Assembly (NCBI GenBank): GCA_903877135.1
Contig: CAIRCN010000069.1
Span: 1-49,796, forward strand
Length of the DNA stretch: 49,796 bases
DNA from: an uncultured Opitutia bacterium
GTDB lineage: Bacteria; Verrucomicrobiota; Verrucomicrobiia; Opitutales; Opitutaceae
Direction: 5' to 3'
Position numbers and translations under genes: made by a program. Shown here one piece after another: positions 13,618-28,408 of this stretch. The notes beneath the pieces are model-generated. The model did no database searches, had not been told where the DNA came from, and worked only from the letters and a program-made list of their open reading frames with translations. Position 1 is the first letter of the stretch. The number at the start of each line of letters is the position of its first letter.

Positions 13618-14634
13618 TTACGTTTGCGCGAGCCGGCGCGCCGCCTCGACGATGCGGGGCACGTCGGGCCGGTAGGCGTTTTCCAGCACCGGACTGAACG
13701 GCACCGGCACATCAGCCGACGCCACCCGCACGACAGGCGCCATCAGACTGTCGCCGCAATGTTCCATGATCCCCGCGGCTATCTCCGCGCTGACGCCGCC
13801 CGTCTTCGGGCCCTCCTCGACGATGACAACCCGACCGGTTTTGCGGATCGACGCCCCGATGGTCTCGTAGTCGATGGGCGACAGGCTGCGGACATCGATC
13901 ACCTCGGCCTCGATCCCCTCCCCGGCGAGAATCTCGGCGGCGGCGGCGGCGAAGTGAGCCATCAGCAGCCAGCCGAGGATCGTGATGTGCCGGCCCTCGC
14001 GTCGCACGGCGGCGCGGTCCAGCGGCACGACGTAATCGTCTTCGGGGATCTCGCTGGTGGCATCGACGGCGCCGGGTTCGGCGCGCGCGCCCTTCGAGCC
14101 GTAGAGCAGCTTGTGCTCGAAGATCATCACGGGGTTGTCGTCGCGCACCGCGGCCTTGAGGATGCCCTTCGCGTCGTAGGCGGTGGAGACCGCGACGACC
14201 TTCAGGCCGGGCACGCCGGTGAAGTAGCGCTCCATGCTCTGCGCGTGCTGCGAACCGCGGCCGGTCGCGCCGATGGGCGCGCGCATCACCATCGGCACCT
14301 TGACGGTGCCGCCCGACATGTAGCGCATCTTGGCCGCGTTGTTGATCAGTTGGTCGCTGGCGAGAAAGAGAAAATCGCCATATTGCACGTCGGCGATGGG
14401 CCGCATGCCCATCATCGCCGCGCCAACGGCGATGCCGGTGAGGCCCAGTTCCGCGATGGGCGTGTCGATGATGCGTCCCGGAAATCGCTCGGACAGCCCG
14501 AGCGTGACGGTGAAGGCGCCGCCCCATCCGCCGGGCACGCCGATGTCCTCGCCGATGCAAAACACCCGCTCGTCGCGGGTCATTTCCTCCGCGATGCCGT
14601 CGCGGAGCGCCTCTGCTATGCCTTGTCGTTTCAT
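13618..14634 (-). CDS. 2-oxo acid dehydrogenase E1 component, beta subunit
   Basis: The protein has 338 residues. It matches the beta subunit of thiamine-diphosphate-dependent 2-oxo acid dehydrogenases (pyruvate, branched-chain or acetoin type). Signs are 'ERVFCIGEDIGVPGGWGGAF', 'DTPIAELGLTGIAVGAAMMG', 'QYGDFLFLASDQLINNAAKM', and the C-terminal transketolase domain with 'EVIDVRSLSPIDYETI' and 'VVIVEEGPKTGG'. With E1 alpha it would decarboxylate a 2-oxo acid and transfer the acyl group to the lipoyl E2 protein. It is the last gene of the operon, 14 bases after the dioxygenase gene, and is split from E1 alpha by that gene. The substrate cannot be read from the sequence. Confidence 0.93.
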   Translation of the reverse strand: MKRQGIAEALRDGIAEEMTRDERVFCIGEDIGVPGGWGGAFTVTLGLSERFPGRIIDTPIAELGLTGIAVGAAMMGMRPIADVQYGDFLFLASDQLINNAAKMRYMSGGTVKVPMVMRAPIGATGRGSQHAQSMERYFTGVPGLKVVAVSTAYDAKGILKAAVRDDNPVMIFEHKLLYGSKGARAEPGAVDATSEIPEDDYVVPLDRAAVRREGRHITILGWLLMAHFAAAAAEILAGEGIEAEVIDVRSLSPIDYETIGASIRKTGRVVIVEEGPKTGGVSAEIAAGIMEHCGDSLMAPVVRVASADVPVPFSPVLENAYRPDVPRIVEAARRLAQT

Positions 14635-14648
14635 GATGGTGGTTCTGG

Positions 14649-15470
14649 TTATTCGCGGTAGCAGACGGGACAACCCTGCGGGTCGGCGAAGTCGTTCAGG
14701 TAGCCGGCGTCCTGCCAGCGGACGCCGTCGCGCAGGCCGGATTTCTCCGTGCGCAGGTGGATCGCAAAGCTCACGCGCGGCCCCGCCGCCAGATTGGGCC
14801 CGCTGCCGTGGACGCTGAGCCGGTGGTGAAAACTCACTCCGCCCGGCGGCAGGACTGCGGCAACCTCCTGCCACGCGCTGGTGCCGTTCTTTTCCATGAT
14901 GCGCTGTTTGATCGCATCGAGATTGTGGCCGAAAAAGTCTCCAGCCTTGAGCAGCCCCCAGTGGTTCGAACCGCGCACAAAGCGCATCGGGCCGGACTCG
15001 GCCGTGACGTCGCTGACCGCCACCCATGCAGTGAAAAGTTCACCCTGCAACGCGCCCTCCCAATACTCGTAGTCTTGGTGCCAGCCGACATTCCCGCTGC
15101 CCTGGCTACCGGGCGGTTTGATCAGCATCTGCGTCGCGAACACCTGCACCATCCTCGATCCGTTCAGCGCGGCCGCCCACCGTCCGATGGCCGGATGGCT
15201 CACGAGTTCGTGAATCGTTCGGTCGGAGCGGTGGGCGTTGTCGATCTTCACCAAAGCGCTCGGTGGCTCCTTGGCGCCTGGCGGATTGCCGTTGGGCGGG
15301 ATGCCTGTTTCGTAATCGCCCGCGTAGACAGCCGCAATGCGCGGTCGCACGCGGGCGAGCAACTCCGGGGGAATGAGCGGCGGCGCGATGAAAAAGCCTT
15401 CGCGCTCGAACTGCGCGGCGGCGGCGCGTTCTTCGGCCTCGGTGAGGGGGGCGGGGTCGGAGGTATTCAT
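14649..15470 (-). CDS. PhyH-type Fe(II)/2-oxoglutarate dioxygenase
   Basis: The 273-residue protein belongs to the phytanoyl-CoA dioxygenase-like family. The iron ligands are visible: His131 and Asp133 in 'GWHQDYEYW' and the distal His221 in 'SVHGSGPN'. Arg232 in 'GPRVSFAIHL' is well placed to bind 2-oxoglutarate. Bacterial members hydroxylate, or oxidatively open, a wide range of small molecules. It sits between E1 alpha (11-base gap) and E1 beta (14-base gap), so it probably acts in the same pathway, for example to oxidise an intermediate before cleavage; that is inference. The active site looks intact. Confidence 0.9.
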   Translation of the reverse strand: MNTSDPAPLTEAEERAAAAQFEREGFFIAPPLIPPELLARVRPRIAAVYAGDYETGIPPNGNPPGAKEPPSALVKIDNAHRSDRTIHELVSHPAIGRWAAALNGSRMVQVFATQMLIKPPGSQGSGNVGWHQDYEYWEGALQGELFTAWVAVSDVTAESGPMRFVRGSNHWGLLKAGDFFGHNLDAIKQRIMEKNGTSAWQEVAAVLPPGGVSFHHRLSVHGSGPNLAAGPRVSFAIHLRTEKSGLRDGVRWQDAGYLNDFADPQGCPVCYRE

Positions 15471-15481
15471 GGAATTTACGA

Positions 15482-16474
15482 TCAGGCGAACACGTCCTCG
15501 GTCAAATCCGTCAGCGTGGGCTGTGGCGCCTGCTGGGCCTGCACGACGGCGGCCTGAATCCGCTGCTCAAGGCGGGCCTTGATCGCATCGAGATCCGTTT
15601 GTGAAATGTCGCCGCGGGCGAGCAGTTGCTCCGCGAACCGGGTAATCGGGTCGCGCGCAAACCACGCCTCACGCTCATCCTTCGGCTGGTAGTGGCAGGC
15701 GTCGCGCCGCGAGTGCCCGGTGCGGCGGTAGGTCAGCAGCTCCAGCAGGACCGGGCCCTGCCCCGCGCGGCTCTCCGCCACAGCGCGCTGCGCGGCGGCG
15801 TGGACCGCCAACACGTCGTTGCCATCGACGGTTTCGCCGCGAAAGCCGTAGGCTGCCGCGCGATCAGAGATGCGCGAATTTTTCATGACTTTCTCGATGT
15901 GTGTGGAGGCGCCGTAGAGGTTGTTCTCGCAGACGAAGACCACGGGCAGGTTCCAGATCGCGGCCATGTTGACGCCTTCGTGAAACGCGCCCTCGGCCAC
16001 CGCGCCATCGCCGAAGAAACAGGCGACGACCTGCGGCTGCCTCCGCAGCTTGAACGCGAGGGCCATGCCCGCGGCGAGCGGGATGCCGCCGGCGACGATG
16101 GCGATGCCGGGCACCATGCCCCTGGCCATGTTGCCCATGTGCATGGAGCCGCCCTTGCCCTTGCAGCAACCGGTGGTGGCGCCGAACAGTTCGTCCATGA
16201 GTTCCTGCACGCTGAGTCCCTTCGCCAGCGCGTGTCCGTGACCGCGAAACGTCGAGGTGATCCAGTCGTCGGCTCGCAGCGCGGCGCACACGCCCACTGC
16301 CGTCGCCTCCTGGCCCTGGCACTGGTGGATCGTGCCGGGCATCGTGCCTTCAAGGAAAAGAAACTTCACGCGCTCCTCGAATTCACGGATGAGCACGATG
16401 CGCTCGTAAAGTCCGAGGAGAAATTGCCGGTCATAGGTTGAGGCTGGCGGGGTCGTGGTCGGTGTCGTGTTCAT
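15482..16474 (-). CDS. 2-oxo acid dehydrogenase E1 component, alpha subunit
   Basis: The protein has 330 residues from the ATG at 16474, whose ATGA overlaps the stop of the GH38-like gene; an upstream frame extension of ten residues is unlikely. The thiamine-diphosphate motif runs from Gly-Asp-Gly-Ala-Val-Ala-Glu-Gly to Glu-Asn-Asn ('FFGDGAVAEGAFHEG' ... 'VFVCENNLYG'). Family signatures are 'TFRGHGHALAKG', 'GKGGSMHMGN' and the 'TYRRTGHSRRD' loop. It should pair with the E1 beta protein encoded 0.85 kb downstream. The sequence style resembles acetoin/pyruvate dehydrogenase alpha subunits, but substrate assignment by eye is not safe. Confidence 0.93.
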   Translation of the reverse strand: MNTTPTTTPPASTYDRQFLLGLYERIVLIREFEERVKFLFLEGTMPGTIHQCQGQEATAVGVCAALRADDWITSTFRGHGHALAKGLSVQELMDELFGATTGCCKGKGGSMHMGNMARGMVPGIAIVAGGIPLAAGMALAFKLRRQPQVVACFFGDGAVAEGAFHEGVNMAAIWNLPVVFVCENNLYGASTHIEKVMKNSRISDRAAAYGFRGETVDGNDVLAVHAAAQRAVAESRAGQGPVLLELLTYRRTGHSRRDACHYQPKDEREAWFARDPITRFAEQLLARGDISQTDLDAIKARLEQRIQAAVVQAQQAPQPTLTDLTEDVFA

Positions 16475-19062
16475 TTCTGCATTTTGAAGTTTTTGATTTC
16501 CCAAGGGCGCAAAGCAATGTCGTCCGACGGTGGAAGGCCAACGTCCGACGGTTGGCCCAATGCATCGGTCGGTTGCGGGGAATCAAAGGTCAGCGAGGTC
16601 ATGATGCGGGCGCGGCTCGTCTCGCCTTCGCACTCGATCAGTCGCAGTTCGCAACTGTCATCGCCCGCGGTCGGACGGCGAAAAGCGGAAAGCATGGCGC
16701 CGTGGCCTTCGACCCCGATGAATCTCTGGCGCTTCGGCAGCGTGCCAGTGTGCGGGGCCGACACGACGCAGCGAGGCTTCTGATCGAATGCCGCTGCGGC
16801 CTGCACGCGGTCGGTGTTCGTGAAATCGGACCCGTGCGGTCGCAGCGCGTAGCGGTAGTTGCAAGCGCGTGGCCAGCCGAACTCGCCGGTGAAATGCGAC
16901 TCCCACTCGCGCATCACGAGATTCGCGATGGCGCCGCCGGCGCGCCGTTGGAAGAACTGCGTGCCGCCGTGGAGCAGCAGGAGCCCGCTGCCATCCGGCG
17001 CCAGCAGGTCGAGCCACGAGAGCGCGGTGAAGGCGTCTTTCCGGCTCGGCTCAACGCCAAACGGAAAGTCGCGGAGGAGGGTCGCAACGGCGAACGCCGG
17101 CACAAACTCCAGCCAGTAACCCTCCGTGATCTCGAGCGGAAACTGCCAGCCGTTGATCTTCGCCTCGCCCACCTTCGGCGGTAGATCGGCGAAGACGCGC
17201 ACCTGCACCTCGACGTCCGGCGACGACGCCGTGAGCGCGACGGTGATCTCTATCCGCAGCCCGCGCGTGTCGGGATGTGTGGCGCGCACCCGGGCGCGCA
17301 CTGGCCCGGTTTCGAGCCAGGCAAACGTCGACTGCGTCAGCGCCGAGTTGTAGGGTGCGACCGGTGTGTGGGGCGGACGCGCCAGCGGCGACGAACCGTT
17401 GGCCTCGCCGGTCAGTGTGGGAAAGGGCCGCGTGGTGGCGGCCAACATTTCTTTGCCGCTGCGCCGGTCGAAGAGGCTGCACACCGCGCCGCTCACCGGA
17501 TCGAGCGTCACGCGCACGAGACTGTTTTCGAGGACCAGCGCGCCTTGGTCGATCCGCAGGTCGGTCGCGGGCGCTTCGCCGCCGGAGGAGTTGGTCGCGA
17601 GAAATAACGTGTCGTAGCCGACCGAGGGCAGCGCGGGAGCGACAAACACCACCTCGGCGCACACCAACCGGCCGTCGGAGGCACGCTCGCTCGACAACAC
17701 TTGGCTCGGCACGCGCTCGCCAGCACCATTAACGATCTGTACAGCTCGATAGTTCAGTTCCTCCAGTTGCAGGTTGCCGGTTGTGACCAGCGCGGCGCGC
17801 TCGAAACCGCAGGGGTTGAAGACCACTGCGGCGAGGCCGCCCGACGGCGCATCGTTCGCCGAGCCAACTTCCTGGGCGATGAGTTGGAGTGACCGCGTCA
17901 GCACCTGCCGGCCAGTCGCCACGGCCTCGTCCATGAAGCGATAGCCGTAGGAGCCCCAGGTCTGGAAATGCGCGTCGAGCACGGGGTCAGCGGGTGGCGC
18001 TGCGCCCTGGTGGCGGGTATATTCGCACAGCGAAACGTCGTGGCTCTGCGCAGCCAGCAGCCGCCGCCACGCCGCGTGCAGCTCCCCGGCCTCGTCGAGG
18101 TCGAGCCGCAGAGTATGCGCGACCGCTTCGAATCGCTCCGCAGCGAGCAACACCGCCTCCACCTCGCGCCCGAAGCGGCGGATTTGGTCGCCGCCGATCC
18201 CCCACGGCAGCAGTTTCGCAAAATCGTCCACGACGAACCGCCTGGACGCCACCGCTGGCGCGTCCACCTCCGCCATCTGCCGGTCGAGATATTGCTCCAC
18301 CGTCACATACTCGACGTTGAATTTCTCCGAAAGGGACTTGAACAGCTCCGGATCGAACTTGTTGATGGATTTTCCGGTGAGTTTCTCCCAGCCGAACTCG
18401 GTCCACTTCAGCGCCAGCGGCGCACGCCCGCCCTGCATCCGCGCCAGCGTGGCGCGCCCTTCGTCCGTCCAGAGCCAATCGATATCGTGCGTGACCATCG
18501 GCGGGTGAAACACGAGCGGACCGAACGGGACCGAAAGCATCCGCGTGCCATCCGCGCCCTCCCACCAGATGACGGACTCCTCCATACTGGGCGCGCCGTG
18601 CCGGCCCCAAGTGTCGCACTGGGCCATGCTCGCGTAACGATAGCCGGTCAACGCAAGCATCTGGGGAATCTGCGGGTGACTCATCTCCTCCTCCTCGAGA
18701 AACACCGCGACCGGCCCGCCCAACACACGCGTGATCGTTTGCTGGCCCACTGCCAGCTGGCGCAGGTTCGATTCGCCGGAGACCATCGAGCCCATCGGCT
18801 GGCCAAAAGTGCCGCCGACGATTTCGACACTCCTCGCGTCGAGGTATTTTCGGAGCCGCCGGATGAGGTGCGGATAATGTTCCGCCACGAGTTCGTAGGT
18901 CAACGCGTCGAGGTTGATCCCCGTCTTCACGCTCGGTTCGTAGTCGGCCATGTCGAGGCTGTCCGCGATGGACTGCGCGCACGACTCGAGCCCGAGGTTC
19001 CAGCCGATGCCGGTGTAGCTCCAGTGATTGAGCAGCGTGAAGCAAAGGTCGGGTTTGCTCAT
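16471..19062 (-). CDS. GH38 alpha-mannosidase-like protein with altered catalytic residues
   Basis: The ATG at 19062 overlaps the stop of the preceding gene (ATGA) and gives 863 residues; the longer frame to 19182 runs inside that gene. GH38 features are visible: 'YPHLIRRLRKYLDARSVEIV' then Gly-Gly, 'SGESNLRQL' (about residues 95-103), 'HPQIPQMLALTGYRYAS', and 'WWEGADGTRMLSVP', followed by a beta-rich C-terminal half. In active GH38 enzymes an N-terminal His-x-His-x-Asp motif and a Glu-Pro-Asp-x-Asn nucleophile motif bind zinc and catalyse. Here the N terminus reads 'NHWSYTGIGW' and the nucleophile segment reads Gln-Pro-Met-Gly-Ser (88-92), so both are missing or changed. There is no signal peptide. 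It may hydrolyse an unusual substrate by another mechanism, or be inactive and bind glycans. Confidence 0.75.
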   Translation of the reverse strand: MSKPDLCFTLLNHWSYTGIGWNLGLESCAQSIADSLDMADYEPSVKTGINLDALTYELVAEHYPHLIRRLRKYLDARSVEIVGGTFGQPMGSMVSGESNLRQLAVGQQTITRVLGGPVAVFLEEEEMSHPQIPQMLALTGYRYASMAQCDTWGRHGAPSMEESVIWWEGADGTRMLSVPFGPLVFHPPMVTHDIDWLWTDEGRATLARMQGGRAPLALKWTEFGWEKLTGKSINKFDPELFKSLSEKFNVEYVTVEQYLDRQMAEVDAPAVASRRFVVDDFAKLLPWGIGGDQIRRFGREVEAVLLAAERFEAVAHTLRLDLDEAGELHAAWRRLLAAQSHDVSLCEYTRHQGAAPPADPVLDAHFQTWGSYGYRFMDEAVATGRQVLTRSLQLIAQEVGSANDAPSGGLAAVVFNPCGFERAALVTTGNLQLEELNYRAVQIVNGAGERVPSQVLSSERASDGRLVCAEVVFVAPALPSVGYDTLFLATNSSGGEAPATDLRIDQGALVLENSLVRVTLDPVSGAVCSLFDRRSGKEMLAATTRPFPTLTGEANGSSPLARPPHTPVAPYNSALTQSTFAWLETGPVRARVRATHPDTRGLRIEITVALTASSPDVEVQVRVFADLPPKVGEAKINGWQFPLEITEGYWLEFVPAFAVATLLRDFPFGVEPSRKDAFTALSWLDLLAPDGSGLLLLHGGTQFFQRRAGGAIANLVMREWESHFTGEFGWPRACNYRYALRPHGSDFTNTDRVQAAAAFDQKPRCVVSAPHTGTLPKRQRFIGVEGHGAMLSAFRRPTAGDDSCELRLIECEGETSRARIMTSLTFDSPQPTDALGQPSDVGLPPSDDIALRPWEIKNFKMQK

Positions 19063-22000
19063 GCGGTTTGGAGGCTCAGGCCCATGAGGCCGATTACCAC
19101 GTCTTCGGACAAGGTCTCGAGTGTTACGCTCGCCAGCACTACGCCGGGCCGCAGCTTCCACGACAGCACCATGGCTCGGCAATTTTCACCCAGCTGCACC
19201 TGAGGCGGCGGCTGCGGTGGGAAACAAAATCCATCGAGCTCGTAACTATAATCGACGCCACCCCACGAACAGAGCATCCAGAAATTGAACGGTGGCACGA
19301 GTTCCAACCGCTCGGTCTCGCCATCGGCATAACGGAAACGAAATTCCGCGTTCGCGATCCGCGTCTGCATGGGAAAGGTCGAGCCGCAGACGAGCAACCA
19401 GACGGTGTCCGCGGTCCGGTTGACCGAGATTTCCACGCACGCGGGCCAGTTGTCCCAGAGGGACGTGAAGGCGATGTTCCGCTCGTCGGCGAACCGCGCG
19501 AACGGCACCTGCTGCGGCGTCATGATCCGCCCCGCCTCATCGACCAGCGCCGGCACCTGGCTAAGATCGATCGGTGGCGGCGGCAGATTCCAATAGGGGA
19601 ACGTCCACGCCGAGTAGCCGTCGGTGCCCAGCCGCACCGAGCAGGTCGGCGGCCGCGGCGACAGGTAGCGATGCTGAAAGATGGCACGGACGTCGCCGTT
19701 GCAGTGCGGGGCAAGGTCGAGGCAGTCCCATGCGGCGTTTTTCGCGGCGACGTGCGGCGTCCGCACCGCCAGCGCGAGCGTCGCCGCCGGATCGGTGACG
19801 TGAAGTTTGAAAACCTGCCAGCGGGGTAGTTCGCCACAGACACACCGGACCAGCACGAGGTGATGCCCCGTCTTGTGGGCCAGATGAGCGCGTACTCCGG
19901 TCTCATCAGAGCGCGGGCGATGGAGCACGCCATGGAGATCGCGAACCTCCCCCACCCGACCGTGCGTGCAGGGGAGATGCACCTCCTCGCCGACCGACGC
20001 CTCAATTGCCACCGGCGCGCTGTGCGGCAACCGCGAGCCCAGCTCGATAATCAGCTCGGCCGCCCGCCCCGCGGGAGCCTGCACGGTGAGCTGCGTGCAG
20101 CCAAACCCGGGCTCGATCTGTCCTGAGATTTCCCGGCCGTCGAGCGTGAGGCGGAGGATTTTGTCGGCGCGCACCGCCAACTGAAAGACCACCGCGGCCG
20201 GTTGCGTGAGCGAGAGCCGGTAACGGTCTGCGTCGCTGTCCTGGCGGTAATCGAGTGTGAAGTCCGGCGTGTGGATCGAAGCGCTGGGCCAGGCGGACGG
20301 AAATGCCGGGCGTATCGTCACCACACCGTTCGGGTAATCGGGCGCGTAGCCGAACAGTCCCTCGACGACGGCGCGGGCGAACATGTGCGTGTTGTCCGCG
20401 AAATCGGTGCCCGCGCCGATGTGGCTGAAGGCCCCCGGGACGACCGAGGCATACGCGCTCTCCAAGGTCGCCCCGAGCAGCAGTTCGTAGCCCTCGTCGC
20501 CCAGGCCCGTTTGAAAATATGCGAGCGCGAGGTGCGCGAGGTCGCCGCCAAACATGTCGCGCACCGACCATTTCCACGGCACCCAGTTCGACGGCTGGCA
20601 AAGCACGCCGCCAAACGGCAGCGGTATCCGCTCAAGCGCCCACTCCGTGTAGTAGAGCGACTCGAGCGCCTCCTCGGGATTCGTCAGGCCGGAATCGATC
20701 GGCAGAAACACGCTGTAGACCCAAGCGTCGGCATGCACGCGGCGGTGACCGCCTTGCTCGACGTAGAGCCCAAAATGCCCGCGGTCCTTCAGCCACAAAA
20801 TCTCCCGCATGGCCCGCTGGATCTTCGCGGCACGCGCCTCGTGCCGGGCCGAACCGTCGCGGTCGCCGGCGCGCCGCGCCAGGTCCGCGGCCGCGCGATG
20901 CGCGGTGTAGGCGTAGGCCGACTCCTCCGCACTGCCGCCGCCGTTATACCAGACCGTGTCGGTCGGCAGCGTGTTGATGTAGCTCTCGTAAAGTCCGTCG
21001 TCATCTGGGTCGAAACACTCCCGCATCCACTCAAGGTGCAGCTCCAGCGCGGGGCGCAGCAACCGCTCCATCTCCGCGTCCGCCGTCCAGCGCCAGTCGC
21101 GCAGCGTCTGGTCGAAGAACTGCGACTGCACGTCATACATCGTGAAGTATTGGCGCTCGATGCTGCCGCGCCCATAGAACCGCGACATCGGGCCCTCGTG
21201 GCAGAGAAGTTTGGTTGCGTCAGGGTCAGGCCGCGGCCGGAGCGGGTCGGTCTGCTTTTGCCGCGCAAGGTAGAACGCGGTATTTTCCCGCACGCGCCCG
21301 TGCCATCCAAACGCCGTAGCACCGCAGATCACCCTCCACCCGATGAAGCGAATACTGAACGCCATGCAGCCATGCCGGAAAATCGCCGGGTCGCGCTCGC
21401 AGTTTCCATCGACGGCATGGCACACCGCGGCAACACTAGCATCCAGCCGCGCCTCGGGTGTTTCAATCTGCACACACTCCACATCGTGCAGTCGGTCGGC
21501 GGCCTCCGCGAAGGCTCGGGCGGGGTTCGCGCTGGCGATGACGCCGCCTGCCGCCGTGGCGTCCACCGCCTCTACCGCCCAGAAGACTTCATCGTCACCG
21601 ACACCAAATGCCGCCGTGCCACAGAGGATCGGGCGCGTCGTCGCCTTCGAGGCAGCAAGGTCGAGCGGATTGGCAAACGCGTCCGCATCGGCCGCGTGAA
21701 TCGTTCCCGCGCGATCAATTTTTCCCACCGCCAACCGCGAGGCACCGGCCACGGCCGACAGCCGAAAATACAACCCGTCGAAGGCGTCGACATTGCTCTC
21801 GCACCATTCGGCGATCGGCCCGTGCCTCAGGAGCGGCCGGCGGGGATCTCCCGAACGGCTGATGTGCGGGTTGCCCCTCATGACCGGGTCCCAGTTCAAG
21901 CGCGGATCCTCGTCCGCCTTGGCTCCACCGAAAGCCCAGATCAGCCGATCTCCGGCACGCAGACCGCTCGCGGTCAGCCGCGCCGCAAACCCCGCAGTGA

Positions 22001-22415
22001 CCGCCAGTGGCACGACGGTGAACGTCACGCTCAGGTCTGCCAGAAAAACGTCGGTGCAGTGCCACTCCATCCGTCCACAACGGTAGCGCGCCTCAATCTC
22101 GCCGAAATCATGGAGCCACTTCGCCCTTCCGCCCCGAGCGATGGCGACCGAGAGTGCGCCATGCACAAAGGGCTTTGCGATCAGGCGCACGAACGGCCGG
22201 TCGCCCGCCAGCACGGCGCCCTCGGTGCACGGATTGCAGTAGAGCGGGCGGTTGTTGAAGTGCGGACCATTGAGCCCGACAATCTCGCGGCCCTCGGCGC
22301 CGAACCGCAGGACGCCACGGCGGCGATAGTCGGCGTCGACGACCTGGCCTGGCTCACGGCAGGGCCGGTCGTCAGCCGCCACGTGGGCGACCCGAGGCGC
22401 GGCGGTTTCTTTCAT
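19059..22415 (-). CDS. Large DUF4450-like (alpha/alpha)6 glycoside hydrolase-like protein
   Basis: The ATG at 22415 overlaps the stop of the gene before it (ATGA), giving 1118 residues. The N-terminal half is beta-rich ('GLNGPHFNNRPLYCNPCTEG', 'LAGDRPFVRL', 'GDRLIWAFGGAKADEDPRLN') and resembles DUF4450 proteins. The middle is an alpha/alpha toroid: 'FDPDDDGLYESYINTLPTDT', then a Gly-rich Asn-Gly-Gly-Gly-Ser stretch, Glu-Ser-Ala-Tyr, and 'HADAWVYSVFLPID'. A C-terminal beta domain follows. Acidic residues in 'WYNGGGSAEESAY' are candidates for catalysis. The lack of a signal peptide suggests action on imported oligosaccharides. The family assignment is by eye and the substrate is unknown. Confidence 0.65.
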   Translation of the reverse strand: MKETAAPRVAHVAADDRPCREPGQVVDADYRRRGVLRFGAEGREIVGLNGPHFNNRPLYCNPCTEGAVLAGDRPFVRLIAKPFVHGALSVAIARGGRAKWLHDFGEIEARYRCGRMEWHCTDVFLADLSVTFTVVPLAVTAGFAARLTASGLRAGDRLIWAFGGAKADEDPRLNWDPVMRGNPHISRSGDPRRPLLRHGPIAEWCESNVDAFDGLYFRLSAVAGASRLAVGKIDRAGTIHAADADAFANPLDLAASKATTRPILCGTAAFGVGDDEVFWAVEAVDATAAGGVIASANPARAFAEAADRLHDVECVQIETPEARLDASVAAVCHAVDGNCERDPAIFRHGCMAFSIRFIGWRVICGATAFGWHGRVRENTAFYLARQKQTDPLRPRPDPDATKLLCHEGPMSRFYGRGSIERQYFTMYDVQSQFFDQTLRDWRWTADAEMERLLRPALELHLEWMRECFDPDDDGLYESYINTLPTDTVWYNGGGSAEESAYAYTAHRAAADLARRAGDRDGSARHEARAAKIQRAMREILWLKDRGHFGLYVEQGGHRRVHADAWVYSVFLPIDSGLTNPEEALESLYYTEWALERIPLPFGGVLCQPSNWVPWKWSVRDMFGGDLAHLALAYFQTGLGDEGYELLLGATLESAYASVVPGAFSHIGAGTDFADNTHMFARAVVEGLFGYAPDYPNGVVTIRPAFPSAWPSASIHTPDFTLDYRQDSDADRYRLSLTQPAAVVFQLAVRADKILRLTLDGREISGQIEPGFGCTQLTVQAPAGRAAELIIELGSRLPHSAPVAIEASVGEEVHLPCTHGRVGEVRDLHGVLHRPRSDETGVRAHLAHKTGHHLVLVRCVCGELPRWQVFKLHVTDPAATLALAVRTPHVAAKNAAWDCLDLAPHCNGDVRAIFQHRYLSPRPPTCSVRLGTDGYSAWTFPYWNLPPPPIDLSQVPALVDEAGRIMTPQQVPFARFADERNIAFTSLWDNWPACVEISVNRTADTVWLLVCGSTFPMQTRIANAEFRFRYADGETERLELVPPFNFWMLCSWGGVDYSYELDGFCFPPQPPPQVQLGENCRAMVLSWKLRPGVVLASVTLETLSEDVVIGLMGLSLQTA

Positions 22416-23638
22416 GCGTTTTTTCCTTCGAGCAGGAACCGGTGCACGATGCGGATGAAATTCGCCGGATACTCGCAGTAAGTGTTGATGCGATAGCTGC
22501 TCAGGTCGCCGGTCTTCTCCGAGTAATAGCGTTCGTGCCAGCTCCAATTGTTGGCCCGGCCGACGCGAGCGACATGACGGAGTGATTCAATCACGCCATC
22601 GCGGTCTCCCATTTTCCAGCGTGCCCAAGCTTCGAGATACCAAACCCGGCCCATCGCAGCCAGATCGTGCCGGTCGAGGAATTGCATTTCCCACGCCTCG
22701 TATGTCTCCGGCCGTGTGGCGATACCCGTGGGAATGCCATGGTAGAGAAATCCGCGATTGTCGCGCAGCTGCGCCCACAATCGCCCCACCTGCATTGGGC
22801 TCACCATGTCGGTGGCGATCGCCGCCCAGTCCACGTCAGTCAGACCGTGGTGTGAAATCGGCCCGCGCTCCGGATGGATGTATTCCACGCAGTGATCGCC
22901 TGCCCAGAAACGGTCGCGGAAAGCCGCCGTCATGCGCTCGGCCAGCGCAGCGCACGCCGGATCGTCGAGCAGCCTCGCGGCGAGCCGCAGCGCGTGCGCC
23001 ACATAGCATTGCGCGATCCCGTCATGGTCGAGCCGGCTCGGACGTTCGAGGTAGAACGCACCGCCTGGCACAAACCCCTCGGCGTTCACCTGCTTCATCA
23101 GCCAGTCAGTAGCAGGTTGCAGGATCGGTCGCTGCGCGGACAGCCACGCTTCGTCTCCCGTGTGCCGGTAGATCACATCGGCCATCTGCAGAAAAGTGGT
23201 GTTGGCGAGGACGAAAAGCGGGTTCCCCGGAAACCAGTGTCGGTAAATGCCGCCGTTCGGCTCGATGACCAGCGGAAATTTTTCCTTAAACGTCGGCAGC
23301 TCGCAGTAAACAGTCTGGCCGGCGAGGCCAGGGTTGATTGCGAACGGAATCAACCCGTCCGGGCGCAGAAACGACTTCACATAGTCCCAGCTCGCCAGCA
23401 CCTCCGCCTTGCGCCCGAGCCACAGTAACGCCTCGGCCGACTGGCCCCAGTCCAGCCCCGGATAAGTGGTGTCGGCGCCGTGACCCTGCGTGGGATCAGC
23501 ACACACCGAAAAATAGCCGAAGAAAACCTTCGGATTCAGCGCGGCGAGCACGTTGCGGTCGGCGCAGGCGACGTAGGCTTCGGCCAGCTCCGCATCGAGA
23601 GTGTCGGGAGCGACTGTGGGGACGGGTTTAGGGGCCAT
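22412..23638 (-). CDS. Putative (alpha/alpha)6-toroid glycosidase
   Basis: The protein has 408 residues from the ATG at 23638, ten bases after the E2 gene. Repeated helical segments with aromatic and acidic residues ('YPGLDWGQSAEALLWLGRKA', 'NGGIYRHWFPGNPLFVLANT', 'RLDHDGIAQCYVAHALRLAA', 'TDVDWAAIATDM') are the pattern of six-hairpin glycosidases such as trehalase- or amylo-alpha-1,6-glucosidase-like enzymes. I cannot place it in a named family. There is no signal peptide. Its stop overlaps the next gene's start (ATGA). It probably removes or rearranges sugar units together with the neighbouring glycosidase-like proteins; that is inference. Confidence 0.65.
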   Translation of the reverse strand: MAPKPVPTVAPDTLDAELAEAYVACADRNVLAALNPKVFFGYFSVCADPTQGHGADTTYPGLDWGQSAEALLWLGRKAEVLASWDYVKSFLRPDGLIPFAINPGLAGQTVYCELPTFKEKFPLVIEPNGGIYRHWFPGNPLFVLANTTFLQMADVIYRHTGDEAWLSAQRPILQPATDWLMKQVNAEGFVPGGAFYLERPSRLDHDGIAQCYVAHALRLAARLLDDPACAALAERMTAAFRDRFWAGDHCVEYIHPERGPISHHGLTDVDWAAIATDMVSPMQVGRLWAQLRDNRGFLYHGIPTGIATRPETYEAWEMQFLDRHDLAAMGRVWYLEAWARWKMGDRDGVIESLRHVARVGRANNWSWHERYYSEKTGDLSSYRINTYCEYPANFIRIVHRFLLEGKNA

Positions 23639-23648
23639 GTTGGAAAAA

Positions 23649-24647
23649 TCAGAGTGACTCGAGTTCCTGAACGACCGCATCAAGGAAGCCGGCGGCATAT
23701 TTGCCATTCACGACGCGATGATCCGCCGACAGCGTCAGCGTCAGGCGCGTCTGCGCCACGACGGCACCCTCGCGCACCACCGCCACCGGCGCCGCGCGAC
23801 CGAACGCCAAGATCGCCACTTCGGGCGGGTTGACGATGGCGGCAAAGGTCTCGACGCCGGTGCCGCCGAGATTGGTGATAGTCAGGTTGGCCGGACGCAG
23901 CCGCCGGGCCTCGGCGTCGCCGGCCCGCACGCGGGCGACCAGCGAACGAAGCTCGTCGGAGATCTGTTCCGGCGTCTTGGCGGCCGGATCGGTGATCGTC
24001 GCCACAAAGAGCTCACCCTCAAAATCGACCGCGACGCCCACCGCATCGATCTCCGCCGGGACGAGCCGGTCCGCCTCGAACCGGCAGCAGAGGCGCTCGA
24101 ATTTCTTCAGCGCCTTACCGGCCGCATGCATGAAGAACGCATCCCAGGCCACGTTGCGCGCCGGCTCGGCGTTGCGGCGCTTCAGCATCGGCTCGGCGTT
24201 CGCCGAAGTCTGGAGATAAAAATGCGGAATCGTCTGCTTGCTCTGCTGCAGGCGGCGGGCCGCGGTCTGTTGCGCCGCACTGAGCGGAATGGGCTGTCGC
24301 GCCAGCTTGGTGGCGGGCGTGGTCGCAGCCGCGCGATTCCGCGCAAACATTCCGCCCGCCGGCTTCGGTGTGGCGGGCGCCGGTGTCACTGGTGCGGCGG
24401 CGGATGGGGCCTCGTCGCCGATGACCGCCAGCAGCTGGCCGGCCGAGAGCGCATCGCCCGGCCGGGCGCAAATCGCCTTCAGCCAACCCGTGGCGATCGA
24501 CTCGACCTCCATCGTCGCCTTGTCGGTTTCCACCTCGAGCAATACCTGGCCGCGCTTGACGGGCTGCCCGGTTTCCACGAGCCAGCGGATCACCTTGATC
24601 TCAGAATCAGTGGTCGCGAGGTCCGGCATCTTGAATTCGATTTCCAT
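23649..24647 (-). CDS. Short dihydrolipoamide acyltransferase (E2)-like protein
   Basis: The protein has 332 residues. Residues 1-77 form a lipoyl domain with lipoylated Lys43 in 'ETDKATMEVES'. An Ala/Pro linker follows at about 80-110, and the acyltransferase domain starts near 'AAQQTAARRLQQSKQTIPHF'. The catalytic His310 lies in 'SADHRVVNG'; the usual motif is DHRxxDG, so the Asp is Asn314 here. The peripheral-subunit-binding domain that normally tethers E1 and E3 is not visible in the short linker. It should receive the acyl group from E1 alpha/beta and pass it to CoA. It is encoded 7 kb upstream of the E1 genes, with three glycosidase-like genes between. No E3 gene is in the window. Confidence 0.88.
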   Translation of the reverse strand: MEIEFKMPDLATTDSEIKVIRWLVETGQPVKRGQVLLEVETDKATMEVESIATGWLKAICARPGDALSAGQLLAVIGDEAPSAAAPVTPAPATPKPAGGMFARNRAAATTPATKLARQPIPLSAAQQTAARRLQQSKQTIPHFYLQTSANAEPMLKRRNAEPARNVAWDAFFMHAAGKALKKFERLCCRFEADRLVPAEIDAVGVAVDFEGELFVATITDPAAKTPEQISDELRSLVARVRAGDAEARRLRPANLTITNLGGTGVETFAAIVNPPEVAILAFGRAAPVAVVREGAVVAQTRLTLTLSADHRVVNGKYAAGFLDAVVQELESL

Positions 24648-24659
24648 GGTGGTTGGTCG

Positions 24660-26711
24660 CTAATTGTTTGCCCGGTCCGCAATCCAGCATTCGAGCGCGG
24701 CGAGGCTGTTGCCCGTCGCCATGCCGGTGTCAATCTGGCCGGCGAGCGCCGGTCCCCAGTGCTTGCCGCAGAATTGCCCAAGCGCGTGGACCATGCCACC
24801 ATGCCACGGCTGCCCTGGAGCATCGAGCTGCCAGTTGCCTATGAACGCCGCCATTTCATCCGCCATCCGCCGATAGTAGGGATCCCCGGTGACGCGCGCG
24901 AGCGTCAGGACCGGCTCCATCGCCTTGGCGGGTCCAATCGGGTAGAGCAGCGGATAGTCGTCGGTCCGACAGCACTGACCGCCCCGCGCGATACCCCGAT
25001 GCGCAAGCGGCAGGTCGTAAAAATAGGTCCACGCCAAGGCGAACGCCGCCGCCTTGTGGCAAAGCGCCAGCACGGCGGGCGACCGCGTCGCGACGTAGAG
25101 CGGCACGAGGCCTTCGAGCACGTAGCACGCTGCCTCCGCATCGACGTATTCCTTGTCGGCCGCGAATATGCCATCAAGCATCTGGTTGAAATACTCGTAG
25201 CGGTTGATCGATGGCGCGACCGCCGCCGCGAGACGCGTGGCGCGGTCGACCCAGATGCGGTCGTCCGTCATTTCGCCGAGGCGCGTCCAGAGCCCGCAGA
25301 CCACTGCGCGCGCCGTGATCCGGTGCGGCTTGCGGTTCGCCTCCCGGTTCTCGTCGTCGAGGATGTCAGGGAGATCGCCGTCAGGCCGCTGCTGTCGCGC
25401 CAGAAATTCGCCGATCGCCGTCGCCGTCGCGAGCCACCGCTGTCGCGTCGCGGTGCCCGGGTAGCTCGGTGCCTCTTGGTAGAGCTGGATCAATTGGCTG
25501 CCCGTGTGCCCCAGCGAGTGTGTCCAAATCCGGCGACCGGGCACATGGTCCATTAGAAAATCGCCGTATTTCACGCCATCCGAACGGTCGTAATACGCGC
25601 CGTCGTCGCCGCCGCGGCGCCGGTAGAGTTCCATGTTGCGCGTCATCTCGTCGACATAGGGCAACAGGCTGCGCTCCCCCGTCCGACGCCAGTGCCGCAC
25701 GGCGCCCATCCAGATTTCCACGGCGATGCCCTCGCCCCAGCCGAAATCGAAGTAGCCGCTCATCTCCCCGCGCTTCTTCGCCGGCCCGGTCTGCGTCCGC
25801 ACCCACATGTTGCTGAACCAGCCGCGGTCCGGACCGAGCGCATTGGGCTCCCAAAGTTCGCAATGTTGGAAAAACTTCACGATTCCGGCCGCCACCGCTT
25901 GCGGGTTCACGGCGTGCGGCGGCGTGCGGAGCAGAATCGCGGCCGCCATCCGCTGCGCCTCGATCCAAGGCTCGTCGCCAGTCGCGAGCGGCTTTGCAGC
26001 GAAAACTTCGGTCAACGTCACCTCGTCACCCGCCGCATGCTCGGTCACATCCGGACGCACGTGCGGCACTCCGCCTTCGTGTTGGACCGCGGTGTCCGGA
26101 AGGTAAATTCGCAACACCGCGCCGCCGTCGGAGTCAGGCGTGAGGTCGAGCGTTCCTGCCGAGCGACTGCGGTCCACGCCGTAGATCGCTACCATGCTGC
26201 CGTCGTGCCAGACGTGAAATGGGAACGGCAGCGCCCAGTCCACCGCAGGACGCATGGCTTTGAGCCCGACCAACGGCTCCTCGTGGGCCTGTAGCGGCAT
26301 CGTGTAGCGAAGTGCCGCGTTCGCGCTGAGTTTGAAGCCGGGATGAATCGCCGCCGCGCACGACTTCAAAAAGCGGTAGGTCTGCGTCCGGCGGATCACC
26401 GCCTCGCCCGCCGCCAATGTGATAACCTCCGCCGCCGTCCACCATTCGCAGGCGCCGCTGAGCCGGATTTCCCAGCCCCCATCCGCCGTCTGGGATATAT
26501 CGCAATTGGTGGCGTCAGCCGAACCAATCGACGACGAAAATTCGCCACTATCGATCCCGCACAGGACCGACCGCCAGCCCTCCACGGTCTTCATGGCGAG
26601 CGCGCTCACGCGAAAGACCGGTCGGTCCTCCGCCCCACCAGTTTCGATGGCGACGGCCAGCCGGTCGTTGGCCACCAGTTTGCTGCCGCGCGGTGGAAAT
26701 TCAGGTGCCAT
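24660..26711 (-). CDS. Uncharacterised protein with beta N-terminal part and helical toroid C-terminal part
   Basis: The protein has 683 residues and no signal peptide. The first ~250 residues are beta-rich ('PVFRVSALAM', 'AAIHPGFKLS', 'FPFHVWHDGSMVAIYGVDRS'). The rest is a series of long helices with aromatic/acidic loops ('NMWVRTQTGPAKKRGEMSGY', 'FGWGEGIAVEIWMGAVRHWR', 'THSLGHTGSQLIQLY', 'PLLYPIGPAKAMEPVLTLAR'), as in (alpha/alpha)6 glycosidases and polysaccharide-processing enzymes. I do not recognise a family. It overlaps the aldolase-like gene by 11 bases and precedes the E2 gene by 12. Its place in the operon suggests a role on the same imported glycan or glycoside. Confidence 0.7.
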   Translation of the reverse strand: MAPEFPPRGSKLVANDRLAVAIETGGAEDRPVFRVSALAMKTVEGWRSVLCGIDSGEFSSSIGSADATNCDISQTADGGWEIRLSGACEWWTAAEVITLAAGEAVIRRTQTYRFLKSCAAAIHPGFKLSANAALRYTMPLQAHEEPLVGLKAMRPAVDWALPFPFHVWHDGSMVAIYGVDRSRSAGTLDLTPDSDGGAVLRIYLPDTAVQHEGGVPHVRPDVTEHAAGDEVTLTEVFAAKPLATGDEPWIEAQRMAAAILLRTPPHAVNPQAVAAGIVKFFQHCELWEPNALGPDRGWFSNMWVRTQTGPAKKRGEMSGYFDFGWGEGIAVEIWMGAVRHWRRTGERSLLPYVDEMTRNMELYRRRGGDDGAYYDRSDGVKYGDFLMDHVPGRRIWTHSLGHTGSQLIQLYQEAPSYPGTATRQRWLATATAIGEFLARQQRPDGDLPDILDDENREANRKPHRITARAVVCGLWTRLGEMTDDRIWVDRATRLAAAVAPSINRYEYFNQMLDGIFAADKEYVDAEAACYVLEGLVPLYVATRSPAVLALCHKAAAFALAWTYFYDLPLAHRGIARGGQCCRTDDYPLLYPIGPAKAMEPVLTLARVTGDPYYRRMADEMAAFIGNWQLDAPGQPWHGGMVHALGQFCGKHWGPALAGQIDTGMATGNSLAALECWIADRANN

Positions 26712-27606
26712 GATGGGATCTCGCCTTCCCGCAGCAGCCCAGCGTTTCGATACGCTCCAACACCGCGTCGCGCATGGCGAGCCGGCCTGCGACCATCACA
26801 TCGTGCTCGCCGCCGATTCCGAGCAACTCGTGCGGATTGGCCGTCTCATCCCGCAGCGCCGCGCGCAGCGCCCGCAGGTAGCGCTGTTTCAGATAGGTCC
26901 CGTAGTTCACCTTCGCGACGCCCAGCTTGATCGCCTCGCGCAACGAGCCCGTGGCGATGCCGGTGCCCCCGTGCAGCACGAACGGCAGCGCTACCCGGCG
27001 CCGGATTTCCGCCAGCCGGTCGAGGTTCAACGCCTGCTCGCCGCTTAATCGAATGTGGACATTGCCCACGCTCACCGCGAGCAGGTCGACACCCGTCGCA
27101 GTGACAAACCGCGCCGCCAGCTCCGGATCGGTCAGGGTGCCATTTTCCTCAATTTCGCCCGACGCCCCGCAGGGCAGCCGGCCAATCTCCGCCTCGACCG
27201 CCACGCCCAGCCCGTGCGCATGCGCCGCAATCGCCGCCACGCGCCGTTCATAATCTTCGTAGGGCGCCGCGGCATCCGCCGGCATGACGAGGTTGAACCC
27301 CGCGGTCGCGGCCGCGCAGACCCACTCATCGTTCGGGCACTCGTTGAAGATCAGACCGCAGGGCACCGCTGCCGACTCGGCTGCGGCGCGCCCGAGCGCG
27401 GCATACCACGCCAGCCGCTCCTTTGCCCGCCGGTCTGGACCGCTGAGAAATTCACCATTGAAGCCGAGGATCACCGGTGAGCGCGTCGCCTCAGCGGCAT
27501 CCACCGCGCCTTGCAACGACTCGAGGTTCCAGCTCTCGAAATAGCCCAGCGCGTAGCCGCCCGCGCGCGCCGCCGCCATCAGTTTCCCGATCGGTTCAAG
27601 CGGCAT
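26701..27606 (-). CDS. Class II aldolase-like (GatY/KbaY/Fba family) protein with altered metal site
   Basis: The ATG at 27606 gives 301 residues. The fold is clear from 'GLGVAVEAEIGRLP' (132-145), 'LLAVSVGNVHIRLSGE' with His184, 'LPFVLHGGTGIATG' with His212, and 'GVAKVNYGTYLK'. Class II fructose-/tagatose-bisphosphate aldolases carry a His-x-Asp-His motif after the second strand: the Asp is catalytic and the second His binds zinc. Here this segment reads Leu-Ile-Phe-Asn88-Glu89, so Asp became Asn and His became Glu, while both later zinc-binding His remain. It may be an aldolase with changed chemistry or substrate, or a lyase/isomerase on this scaffold. It follows the DeoR regulator with an 11-base overlap. 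Confidence 0.82.
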   Translation of the reverse strand: MPLEPIGKLMAAARAGGYALGYFESWNLESLQGAVDAAEATRSPVILGFNGEFLSGPDRRAKERLAWYAALGRAAAESAAVPCGLIFNECPNDEWVCAAATAGFNLVMPADAAAPYEDYERRVAAIAAHAHGLGVAVEAEIGRLPCGASGEIEENGTLTDPELAARFVTATGVDLLAVSVGNVHIRLSGEQALNLDRLAEIRRRVALPFVLHGGTGIATGSLREAIKLGVAKVNYGTYLKQRYLRALRAALRDETANPHELLGIGGEHDVMVAGRLAMRDAVLERIETLGCCGKARSHHGT

Positions 27607-28408
27607 GGGCGCTTCCCTTCTGCGCAATGCGGTTCACCGGAGCGACGAGGACGTTTTTCACCTTCTTTGCCAACAGCGTGAGATCAGCGCGCGAGGTGCG
27701 GTCGTCGGTGACCACGGTGTGGATTTGCGCGACGTCGAGCACCTGAGAGAGCGCCCGCTGGCCAAACTTTGAATGGTCTGCCAACAGCACCAGCACCCCG
27801 CAGCGCTGCGCCACGATCTGCTTGATGCGGAAGGTGGGCAGCGATGACTCAAACGTCCCCTTCGCCGGCAAAAATGCCTTGGTGCCGACGAAGGCTAGAT
27901 CGAAGAACAGCGTCTTCGCCCAATCCTCCGCCTGCGGGCCAACATAGGACAGGCTGTTCGCGTCATAATGCCCGCCGATCCCCACGACGCTCAGTTCGCT
28001 GTTCTTGCCGAGTTCCAGGCAGACGAGCGCCGAATTCGTCACCACGGTGACCGCCCGCTTCTCCTTCGCGAGCGCGCGAGCGAGTTCGAGACAGCTGCTG
28101 CTGCCGTCGAGAAAGACCGTCTGCTGCGCCTTGATCAACCCCAGCGCCGCCCGGGCGATAGCCCGTTTCTCCTGCCGGTTCACCGCGAGCCGCGAGTGGA
28201 GCGCCGTTTCGTAGAGATAGGACGGCGCATGCGCGCGCTGCACGCCGCCAACGGATTTGATGACCGCCCCCCGCCGGATCAGCTCCCCGAGATCCCGCCG
28301 CACCGTCATGCTCGAGACGCCCAGCGTCGCCGCGAGCGCGTCGTAGGAACAAGCTCCATCCTGCTCGAGCCGGTCGAGGACAAACTGCCGACGGTCGTTC
28401 GCGGTCAT
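27596..28408 (-). CDS. DeoR-family transcriptional repressor
   Basis: The protein has 270 residues. Residues 1-60 are the DeoR winged-helix domain ('RRQFVLDRLEQDGACSYDAL', 'LGVSSMTVRRDLGELIRRGA'). The C-terminal sugar-phosphate-sensing domain shows 'VFLDGSSSCLELARAL', 'VVTNSALVCLEL', and 'LLADHSKFGQRAL'. Members typically repress sugar catabolic operons and release DNA when a phosphorylated sugar binds. It is the first gene of the operon. An inverted repeat 10-25 bases upstream of its start is a good autoregulatory operator. It overlaps the aldolase-like gene by 11 bases. Confidence 0.95.
   Translation of the reverse strand: MTANDRRQFVLDRLEQDGACSYDALAATLGVSSMTVRRDLGELIRRGAVIKSVGGVQRAHAPSYLYETALHSRLAVNRQEKRAIARAALGLIKAQQTVFLDGSSSCLELARALAKEKRAVTVVTNSALVCLELGKNSELSVVGIGGHYDANSLSYVGPQAEDWAKTLFFDLAFVGTKAFLPAKGTFESSLPTFRIKQIVAQRCGVLVLLADHSKFGQRALSQVLDVAQIHTVVTDDRTSRADLTLLAKKVKNVLVAPVNRIAQKGSAHAA

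Follow-up and report, generated by a model that had tools for sequence, protein, structure and literature searches.

An aldolase homologue with an altered HxDH motif and its linkage to a thiamine/lipoyl complex

The ALD-NE gene and the NE-type clade

The window analysed here is the whole 49,796-nucleotide stretch of contig CAIRCN010000069.1 (assembly GCA_903877135.1, an uncultured Opitutia bacterium), and our subject is a gene within it, ALD-NE, which encodes a class II aldolase homologue with a replaced HxDH motif. By translation, the gene occupies positions 26704-27606 of the minus strand (26701 with the stop codon), encodes 301 amino acids, starts with the codon at 27606-27604 and ends with that at 26703-26701; on the plus strand, the frame read over this interval is interrupted by stops. 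An initial annotation, made from the sequence alone, had proposed a class II aldolase-like protein in which the Asp and His of HxDH are replaced. This was borne out by alignments and by a full-length match to PF01116 (residues 8-294, 191.6 bits against a curated cut-off of 25.5). The proposed coordinates and residue numbers were also correct, and the strand, left unstated, is minus.

Residues 85-89 read L-I-F-N-E, as annotated. In the alignments, by which all residue roles were assigned, the exact equivalent of HxDH is I86-F87-N88-E89, with L85 just ahead of the motif. All three conserved positions are thus changed: the first His to Ile, the Asp to Asn (N88, codon 27345-27343) and the second, zinc-binding His to Glu (E89, codon 27342-27340). 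H184 (codon 27057-27055) and H212 (codon 26973-26971), likewise on the minus strand, align with the two later zinc-binding His of canonical relatives, and each is kept in 78 of 78 members of the clade described below. Another Asp-His pair shifted into the site was sought and rejected, since the alignments place none there.

According to an AlphaFold2 model built from 59 clade sequences (mean pLDDT 94.4), ALD-NE has the TIM-barrel fold of class II aldolases. The nearest solved structures in the VIA search were sulfofructose-phosphate aldolase 8q59_B (Z 36.5, root-mean-square deviation 2.2 over 278 residues) and YdjI 6ofu_A (Z 35.8, 1.8 over 259). The best 50 Foldseek and the best 50 VIA matches (VIA Z 36.5-28.8) were named fructose-bisphosphate (FBP), tagatose-bisphosphate (TBP), sulfofructose-phosphate or YdjI aldolases, except for 9a4l, whose title lacks the word aldolase. 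ALD-NE scored under the cut-offs of all 20 NCBIfam aldolase models listed, PRK12857, TIGR01859, TIGR01858 and TIGR00167 included; the top score was 167.3 bits against a cut-off of 423, and the one nearest its cut-off was that of TIGR00167 (146.7 against 215.6).

A single scan of genome contigs with the ALD-NE protein gave 77 distinct loci, whose record titles place them in about a dozen phyla (Verrucomicrobiota, Planctomycetota, Lentisphaerota, Kiritimatiellia, Armatimonadota, Chloroflexota, Gemmatimonadetes, Spirochaetota, Actinomycetota, Atribacteria, Aerophobetes and Bacillota), mostly metagenome-assembled genomes, some of which may be mis-binned. One of the six scan patterns contained Asn-Glu itself; members such as LLNESDD cannot derive from it. 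With loci from the genome searches added, and identical sequences and those under 150 residues dropped, 79 clade members, a few of them fragments, were aligned with 36 other class II aldolases. N88 and E89 are present in 79/79 of the former and Asp and His in 36/36 of the latter, which makes chance or a sequencing slip unlikely; a one-off mutation or a pseudogene was likewise rejected, the frame being open. A maximum-likelihood tree was computed from 38 clade members (every other long sequence, plus L001) and 35 other aldolases, and a branch supported 100/100 divides the clade from the rest; judged by sequence, a separate clade of NE-type aldolases is well supported.

Within this clade Y22, E24, W26, S30, G48, G51 and G236 are invariant and R59, K240 and D269 nearly so. 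This set, in which E24 (79/79) and R59 (78/79) are NE-specific, distinguishes ALD-NE from canonical class II aldolases, as does its linkage to E1 and lipoyl proteins. Canonical D110, S112, N119, G185, Y187 and P191 are mostly gone (D110 is kept in 5/79 and S112 in 6/79), so that ALD-NE differs from FBP, TBP, sulfofructose-phosphate and YdjI aldolases not only in HxDH but also in the Asp/Ser of the next strand and in the Gly-x-Tyr after the second zinc His. The latter is mostly lost in the clade, position 185 being mostly I, L or V and 187 variable, whereas other class II aldolases have the Gly in 36/36 and the Tyr in 35/36. Shared with those aldolases are the fold, full-length homology (VIA Z 34-36), both later zinc His, E138, K232, the HGG and KxN elements and, mostly, N234 (72/77). 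The initial suggestion that the reaction is probably not that of an FBP or TBP aldolase is supported by the lack of any relocated Asp-His pair, the lost canonical positions, the NCBIfam scores and neighbouring genes unlike those expected of such an enzyme.

Among 200 genomes searched within the family, 17 carry a member of the clade (18 matches listed, one of them canonical), as do nine of 387 genomes of the phylum (E 9e-65 or better, the next match being 4.9e-40), where at most six aldolase and five E1a candidates were scored per genome. The sole further match in the window's genome at E 0.001 (L002) reads HLDHG. Phage matches (best 5 of 33) and plasmid matches (best 10 of 287) to ALD-NE were 28-34% identical; an NE-type gene on an Arthrobacter plasmid, described below, lies outside those ten.

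The thiamine/lipoyl complex beside the aldolase gene

The second finding is the linkage of ALD-NE to genes for a thiamine-diphosphate-dependent complex, with E1-alpha (E1a), E1-beta (E1b) and lipoyl or E2 components. Counts were taken from tblastn over the 77 related loci, which have flanks of unequal length, because greedy calling of open reading frames overlooked some of the aldolase genes and produced antisense artefacts. Homologues of E1a were found in 60 loci, E1b in 53, E2 or lipoyl proteins in 61, E3 in 11, DeoR in 41, PfkB in 28, FGGY in 14 and D-lyxose isomerase in eight. Within 1.5 kb of the aldolase gene, at least one of E1a, E1b and lipoyl/E2 occurs in 58 of 75 loci (singly E1a in 40, E1b in 26 and E2 in 49) versus 0 of 34 canonical loci; this is the fair comparison, because the canonical controls span about 2-4 kb, less than many of the ALD-NE loci do. 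Where the flanks reach at least 9 kb on either side (29 loci), E1a, E1b and E2 occur together in 20 loci, one or two of them in seven, and none in two (L088, L128).

The order E1a-E1b-ALD-E2-E3 recurs in nine loci of Lachnospiraceae and Christensenella (L120-L123, L125, L127, L129-L131). An FGGY kinase gene follows E3 in eight of them, behind an ADH gene in L130; L120 lacks it. In the 387 genomes of the phylum, the nine with the NE clade are the same nine that carry the closest E1a (E 1.7e-109 or better, the next being 8.1e-103), by a cut-off set between these values after the list had been seen; four of these genomes come from one family and the other five from five families. Two NE proteins were reached by searching with E1 rather than with the aldolase. 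One is the Arthrobacter plasmid gene, which reads LFNEA and adjoins a fused E1; in the public record it is named class II fructose-bisphosphate aldolase, despite the change of the residue pair typical of that activity. The other is a second copy in a Christensenella genome, chosen because a first NE copy had already been found in it; this module contains the NE aldolase along with homologues of D-lyxose isomerase and PfkB.

A tree of 62 E1a proteins separates the 31 ALD-NE-linked ones, part of those collected, from 30 others without intermixing (branch 80/94); the very long L137 stands at the root. Across 146 genomes of the order of G687, E1a proteins more than 50% identical to that of G687 were found only in G687 itself, and five more genomes have matches at 36-49%. 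The complex is thus rare in a sample drawn without reference to the aldolase. The 3.2-Mb Christensenella genome (G688) has eight E1a genes above 200 bits (L130, L147-L153); NE-type aldolase genes adjoin two of these (L130, L147), and the gene of a RuBisCO-like protein adjoins a third (L151).

The partner complex of the window has E1a, E1b and a lipoyl domain. All named genes from DeoR (28408) to E1b (about 13618), E2 and E1a included, are co-directional with ALD-NE on the minus strand. The first gene of this string encodes a DeoR-family regulator (27596-28408; PF00455, PF08220) and overlaps the start of ALD-NE by 11 bp. A 683-residue protein (24660-26711), whose gene overlaps the ALD-NE stop by 11 bp, has no Pfam or NCBIfam match at E 0.001 and has homologues in 8/77 related loci. 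It is followed by an E2-like protein (23649-24647) with an N-terminal lipoyl domain (PF00364) and an acyltransferase domain (PF00198) reading HxxxNG for HxxxDG, and by a 431-residue protein (22412-23707), also unmatched in Pfam and NCBIfam at E 0.001 and with homologues in 11/77 loci. Next come two proteins of uncertain start: a large one with a DUF4450 stretch and weak glycoside-hydrolase-type matches (19059-22547) and a GH38-like protein (16471-19182). E1a (15482-16504) scores 355.9 bits with TIGR03182, below its cut-off of 393.85; a PhyH-family (phytanoyl-CoA dioxygenase-like) protein (14649-15470; PF05721) separates it from E1b of the same complex (13618-14646; PF02779, PF02780), whose extent was taken from tblastn and whose start was placed by homology. 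Large proteins without a clear family (683 residues, 431 residues and the DUF4450 protein) and the GH38-like protein thus lie within the string at 16471-26711; this cluster may encode glycan hydrolases.

The lipoyl and E2 proteins are variable. In loci L057-L131, a lipoyl domain has an acyltransferase domain within 1.6 kb in 35 cases and none in 27 (27/62 of those with a lipoyl match); 13 loci gave no lipoyl match. Among the 27, the lipoyl domain is fused to E1a in 12 sequences (by Pfam in nine of them and in L160), and 11 loci have a short lipoyl protein on its own, 78-153 residues long (eight sequences examined); L078 has the same length as the fused L079, the lipoyl proteins of L074 and L095 are cut by the contig end, and that of L105 is a 46-residue piece. 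N-terminal lipoyl-E1a fusions without an acyltransferase domain were seen in L065, L071, L076, L077, L079, L080, L094, L097, L111, L112, L118, L119 and L160; in L111, lipoyl, E1a and E1b form a single chain of 801 residues. Even without the aldolase, the partner complex would be unusual for these fusions. A short linker motif, FA(R/K/E)NR, follows both fused and stand-alone lipoyl domains (L058, L064, L065, L076, L077, L080, L087, L097) and is possibly a docking peptide. Where E2 is readable, the Asp of HxxxDG is lost (HxxxNG, SG or GG) in 23/37 rows, the window included, and kept in 14/37, Lachnospiraceae and Christensenella among them; L053 and L081 in this set look like one genome.

Possible function of the module

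The module resembles acetoin and pyruvate dehydrogenase complexes in having E1a, E1b, lipoyl/E2 and, in some loci, E3. It differs from them in the aldolase gene within the operon, in the many fused or lone lipoyl domains and in E2 proteins that often read HxxxNG or HxxxSG. Annotated neighbours are sugar kinases and aldose isomerases, which differ between loci, so several sugars are likely to serve as substrates. Our preferred, though tentative, explanation is that ALD-NE is a repurposed class II aldolase without the usual activity, which supplies a kinase-derived ketose to the thiamine/lipoyl complex for cleavage. Sequence comparison itself shows the clade, its residues, the module and, for five of the six Bacillota carriers, a complex with no second of its E1a type; the metal ligands, substrate, type of reaction and order of steps that we infer are as follows.

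The module would be a dedicated sugar-catabolic one, consisting of a regulator, a kinase of the PfkB or FGGY type, ALD-NE and a thiamine-diphosphate E1 with a lipoyl domain, often joined by a sugar importer and an aldose-ketose isomerase. The kinase would first form a sugar phosphate, which ALD-NE may then bind through the retained HGGT/S and KxN elements at the barrel end, with a metal for which Glu89, His184 and His212 are the presumed ligands. Since the catalytic Asp has become Asn, the usual retro-aldol step would not take place, and the enzyme might instead use enediolate chemistry, that is, a carbonyl shift, epimerisation or a related rearrangement. Its product could be an alpha-hydroxyketone, for example a 1-deoxyketose phosphate, which E1 would cleave in the manner of acetoin dehydrogenase, so that lipoate receives an acyl group and a triose-type aldehyde is set free. 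One may go further and suppose that a non-cleaving sugar-phosphate enzyme on the aldolase fold feeds a dedicated thiamine/lipoyl ketose dehydrogenase, partly made of lipoyl-E1 fusions without acyltransferase, in a new oxidative route of sugar cleavage that, going by record titles, reaches about a dozen phyla, gut Bacillota included; as a whole, this broader proposal seems to us possible but doubtful. If true, a conserved module would tie sugar kinases to a thiamine/lipoyl complex, and an aldolase scaffold would have kept its metal site while abandoning the aldol step. In the open-access literature searched, we found neither such a sugar-breaking route nor a description of the NE clade, the aldolase-E1 module or a lipoyl-E1 fusion.

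Several known systems bear on this proposal. E. coli FbaA D109A loses FBP cleavage and keeps 4-epimerisation of fructose 6-phosphate (PMC5434028), so that the class II aldolase fold can perform sugar-phosphate chemistry without that Asp. DXR type II converts deoxyxylulose phosphate to methylerythritol phosphate, and nearby DLO families are called uncharacterised (PMC3847144). A mutant pyruvate dehydrogenase E1 is reported to yield 1-deoxyxylulose phosphate in vivo, pyruvate dehydrogenase to form 1-deoxyxylulose in work cited there, and XylB to phosphorylate the latter (PMC3424233). For the ALD-NE module, 1-deoxyxylulose phosphate or methylerythritol was considered as a substrate. DXR-type-II-like or DLO-like oxidoreductases of rhizobial plasmids, although of a different protein family, resemble ALD-NE in being encoded directly beside an E1a-E1b-E2 set in sugar operons; a DXR-type-II-like gene lies within about 250 bp of E1 in 29 of the 60 plasmid rows listed (best 60 of 703), matched by accession by eye and including many near-copies, with PF21135 shown for L140 and L141. 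No DRL homologue was found in those ALD-NE loci that were searched for it. The LsrF branch of autoinducer-2 breakdown (NF006081), in which a relative of TIM-barrel aldolases leads from a sugar phosphate to acyl-CoA, resembles the role proposed here, although LsrF belongs to the DeoC/LacD family and not to PF01116. The substrates of LsrF, like those of RuBisCO-like proteins, are ketose phosphates or compounds of the 1-deoxyketose type. LsrF thiolase exceeded its curated cut-off in L092, LsrF homologues occur in 3/77 loci, and a RuBisCO-like protein lies beside a related E1 complex in Christensenella (L151), which, as with the DXR-II-like genes, puts a sugar-phosphate-rearranging enzyme next to E1.

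Other observations weigh against the preferred explanation. About half of the listed plasmid E1 rows lack a DXR-II-like gene in the list, and in the E1a tree the DXR-II-linked E1 proteins fall among other E1 proteins, outside the ALD-NE-linked group, which makes this analogy indirect. A RuBisCO-like protein and ALD-NE occur together in 4 of 77 loci, so the former is not a simple substitute for the latter, an idea which these four loci weaken. The epimerisation residues of FbaA (Glu182, Asp288) are not clearly kept, the position of Asp288, equated by motif, being Gly in 77/77. By tblastn, 10/77 loci have no E1/E2 component; L088, L107, L110 and L128 among them have useful flanks, and the other six (L060, L062, L067, L098, L099, L116) are short or cut. 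The second Christensenella copy keeps Asn-Glu (ILNEA), but at the positions of W26 and S30, invariant in the other members, it carries Phe and Cys. Finally, at E 1e-12 the window itself gave no match to PfkB or FGGY.

Alternative readings and related operons

ALD-NE may also be a genuine retro-aldolase whose metal site is altered (Glu89, His184, His212) and in which another residue, such as Glu24 or Glu138, has taken over from the catalytic Asp; it would split an unusual ketose phosphate, one product then feeding the E1/lipoyl complex. We regard this as possible, if rather unlikely. It would agree with the fold and its closeness to sulfofructose-phosphate aldolase (Z 36.5) and YdjI (Z 35.8), and with the retained E138, K232, HGG and KxN elements, and the NE-specific E24 (79/79) and R59 (78/79) could serve in such a reaction. 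The position which takes the proton from the C4 hydroxyl, however, is Asn in all 79 members, and FbaA D109A is without FBP activity (PMC5434028).

A more improbable alternative is that ALD-NE converts a sugar acid to pyruvate or some other 2-oxoacid, with E1/E2 as a dedicated pyruvate-type dehydrogenase. E1a, E1b and E2 do match pyruvate dehydrogenase models best, the Faecalicatena E1b (L123) exceeds the cut-off of NF006667, the pyruvate dehydrogenase E1-beta model (339.9 against 321), which counts toward such a role, and a Glu/His metal site might suit a carboxylate substrate. Both E1a proteins scanned, however, score below the pyruvate dehydrogenase cut-offs, many lipoyl partners lack an acyltransferase, and the annotated neighbours are sugar kinases and aldose isomerases (no search was aimed at sugar-acid dehydratases). 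In five of the six Bacillota carrier genomes searched, the E1a beside the aldolase is the only full-length match, the rest being under 35 bits, so that this complex is the sole one of E1a type there; the sixth, Christensenella, has eight matches above 200 bits. All six have pyruvate:ferredoxin oxidoreductase above its cut-off, and the complex as the only pyruvate oxidiser was therefore rejected for these genomes. The window's genome gave three further E1-like matches, two at 31-33% and one very weak.

The scarcity of acyltransferase domains brings in a further alternative, in which ALD-NE handles the acyl group that E1 puts on lipoate, by transfer to another acceptor or by hydrolysis, in place of the missing acyltransferase. 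We consider it quite improbable. The lipoyl-E1a fusions and stand-alone lipoyl proteins without an acyltransferase nearby would fit it, as would the loss of the E2 motif Asp in 23/37 rows versus its presence in 28/29 other E2 genes of 15 genomes searched (the window's own copy excluded; the odd one is a doubtful pattern match). ALD-NE is equally present, however, where the motif is kept, as in Lachnospiraceae. Moreover, all 15 genomes, most of them with such loci, carry an acyltransferase gene somewhere, and acyl-CoA may therefore still form. Least probable of all, and by our estimate very unlikely, is a catalytically dead structural or regulatory relative, which the loss of the catalytic Asp and one zinc His might suggest, whereas 24 strictly invariant columns across 59 clade sequences of many phyla, polar ones included, point to a working active site.

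Two kinds of related loci may be added. In the plasmid operons L140 (7574-12221), L141 (7516-12271) and L146 (6562-11229), a DXR-type-II-like gene is combined with E1a-E1b-E2 and a glucitol-type phosphotransferase system, for which methylerythritol, or a branched sugar like it, may be the substrate. The Chloroflexota loci L106, L113, L115 and L118 combine ALD-NE with UPF0261 and/or PEP-hydrolase-like genes, and three of them also have a RuBisCO-like protein and a xylose-isomerase-like TIM barrel.

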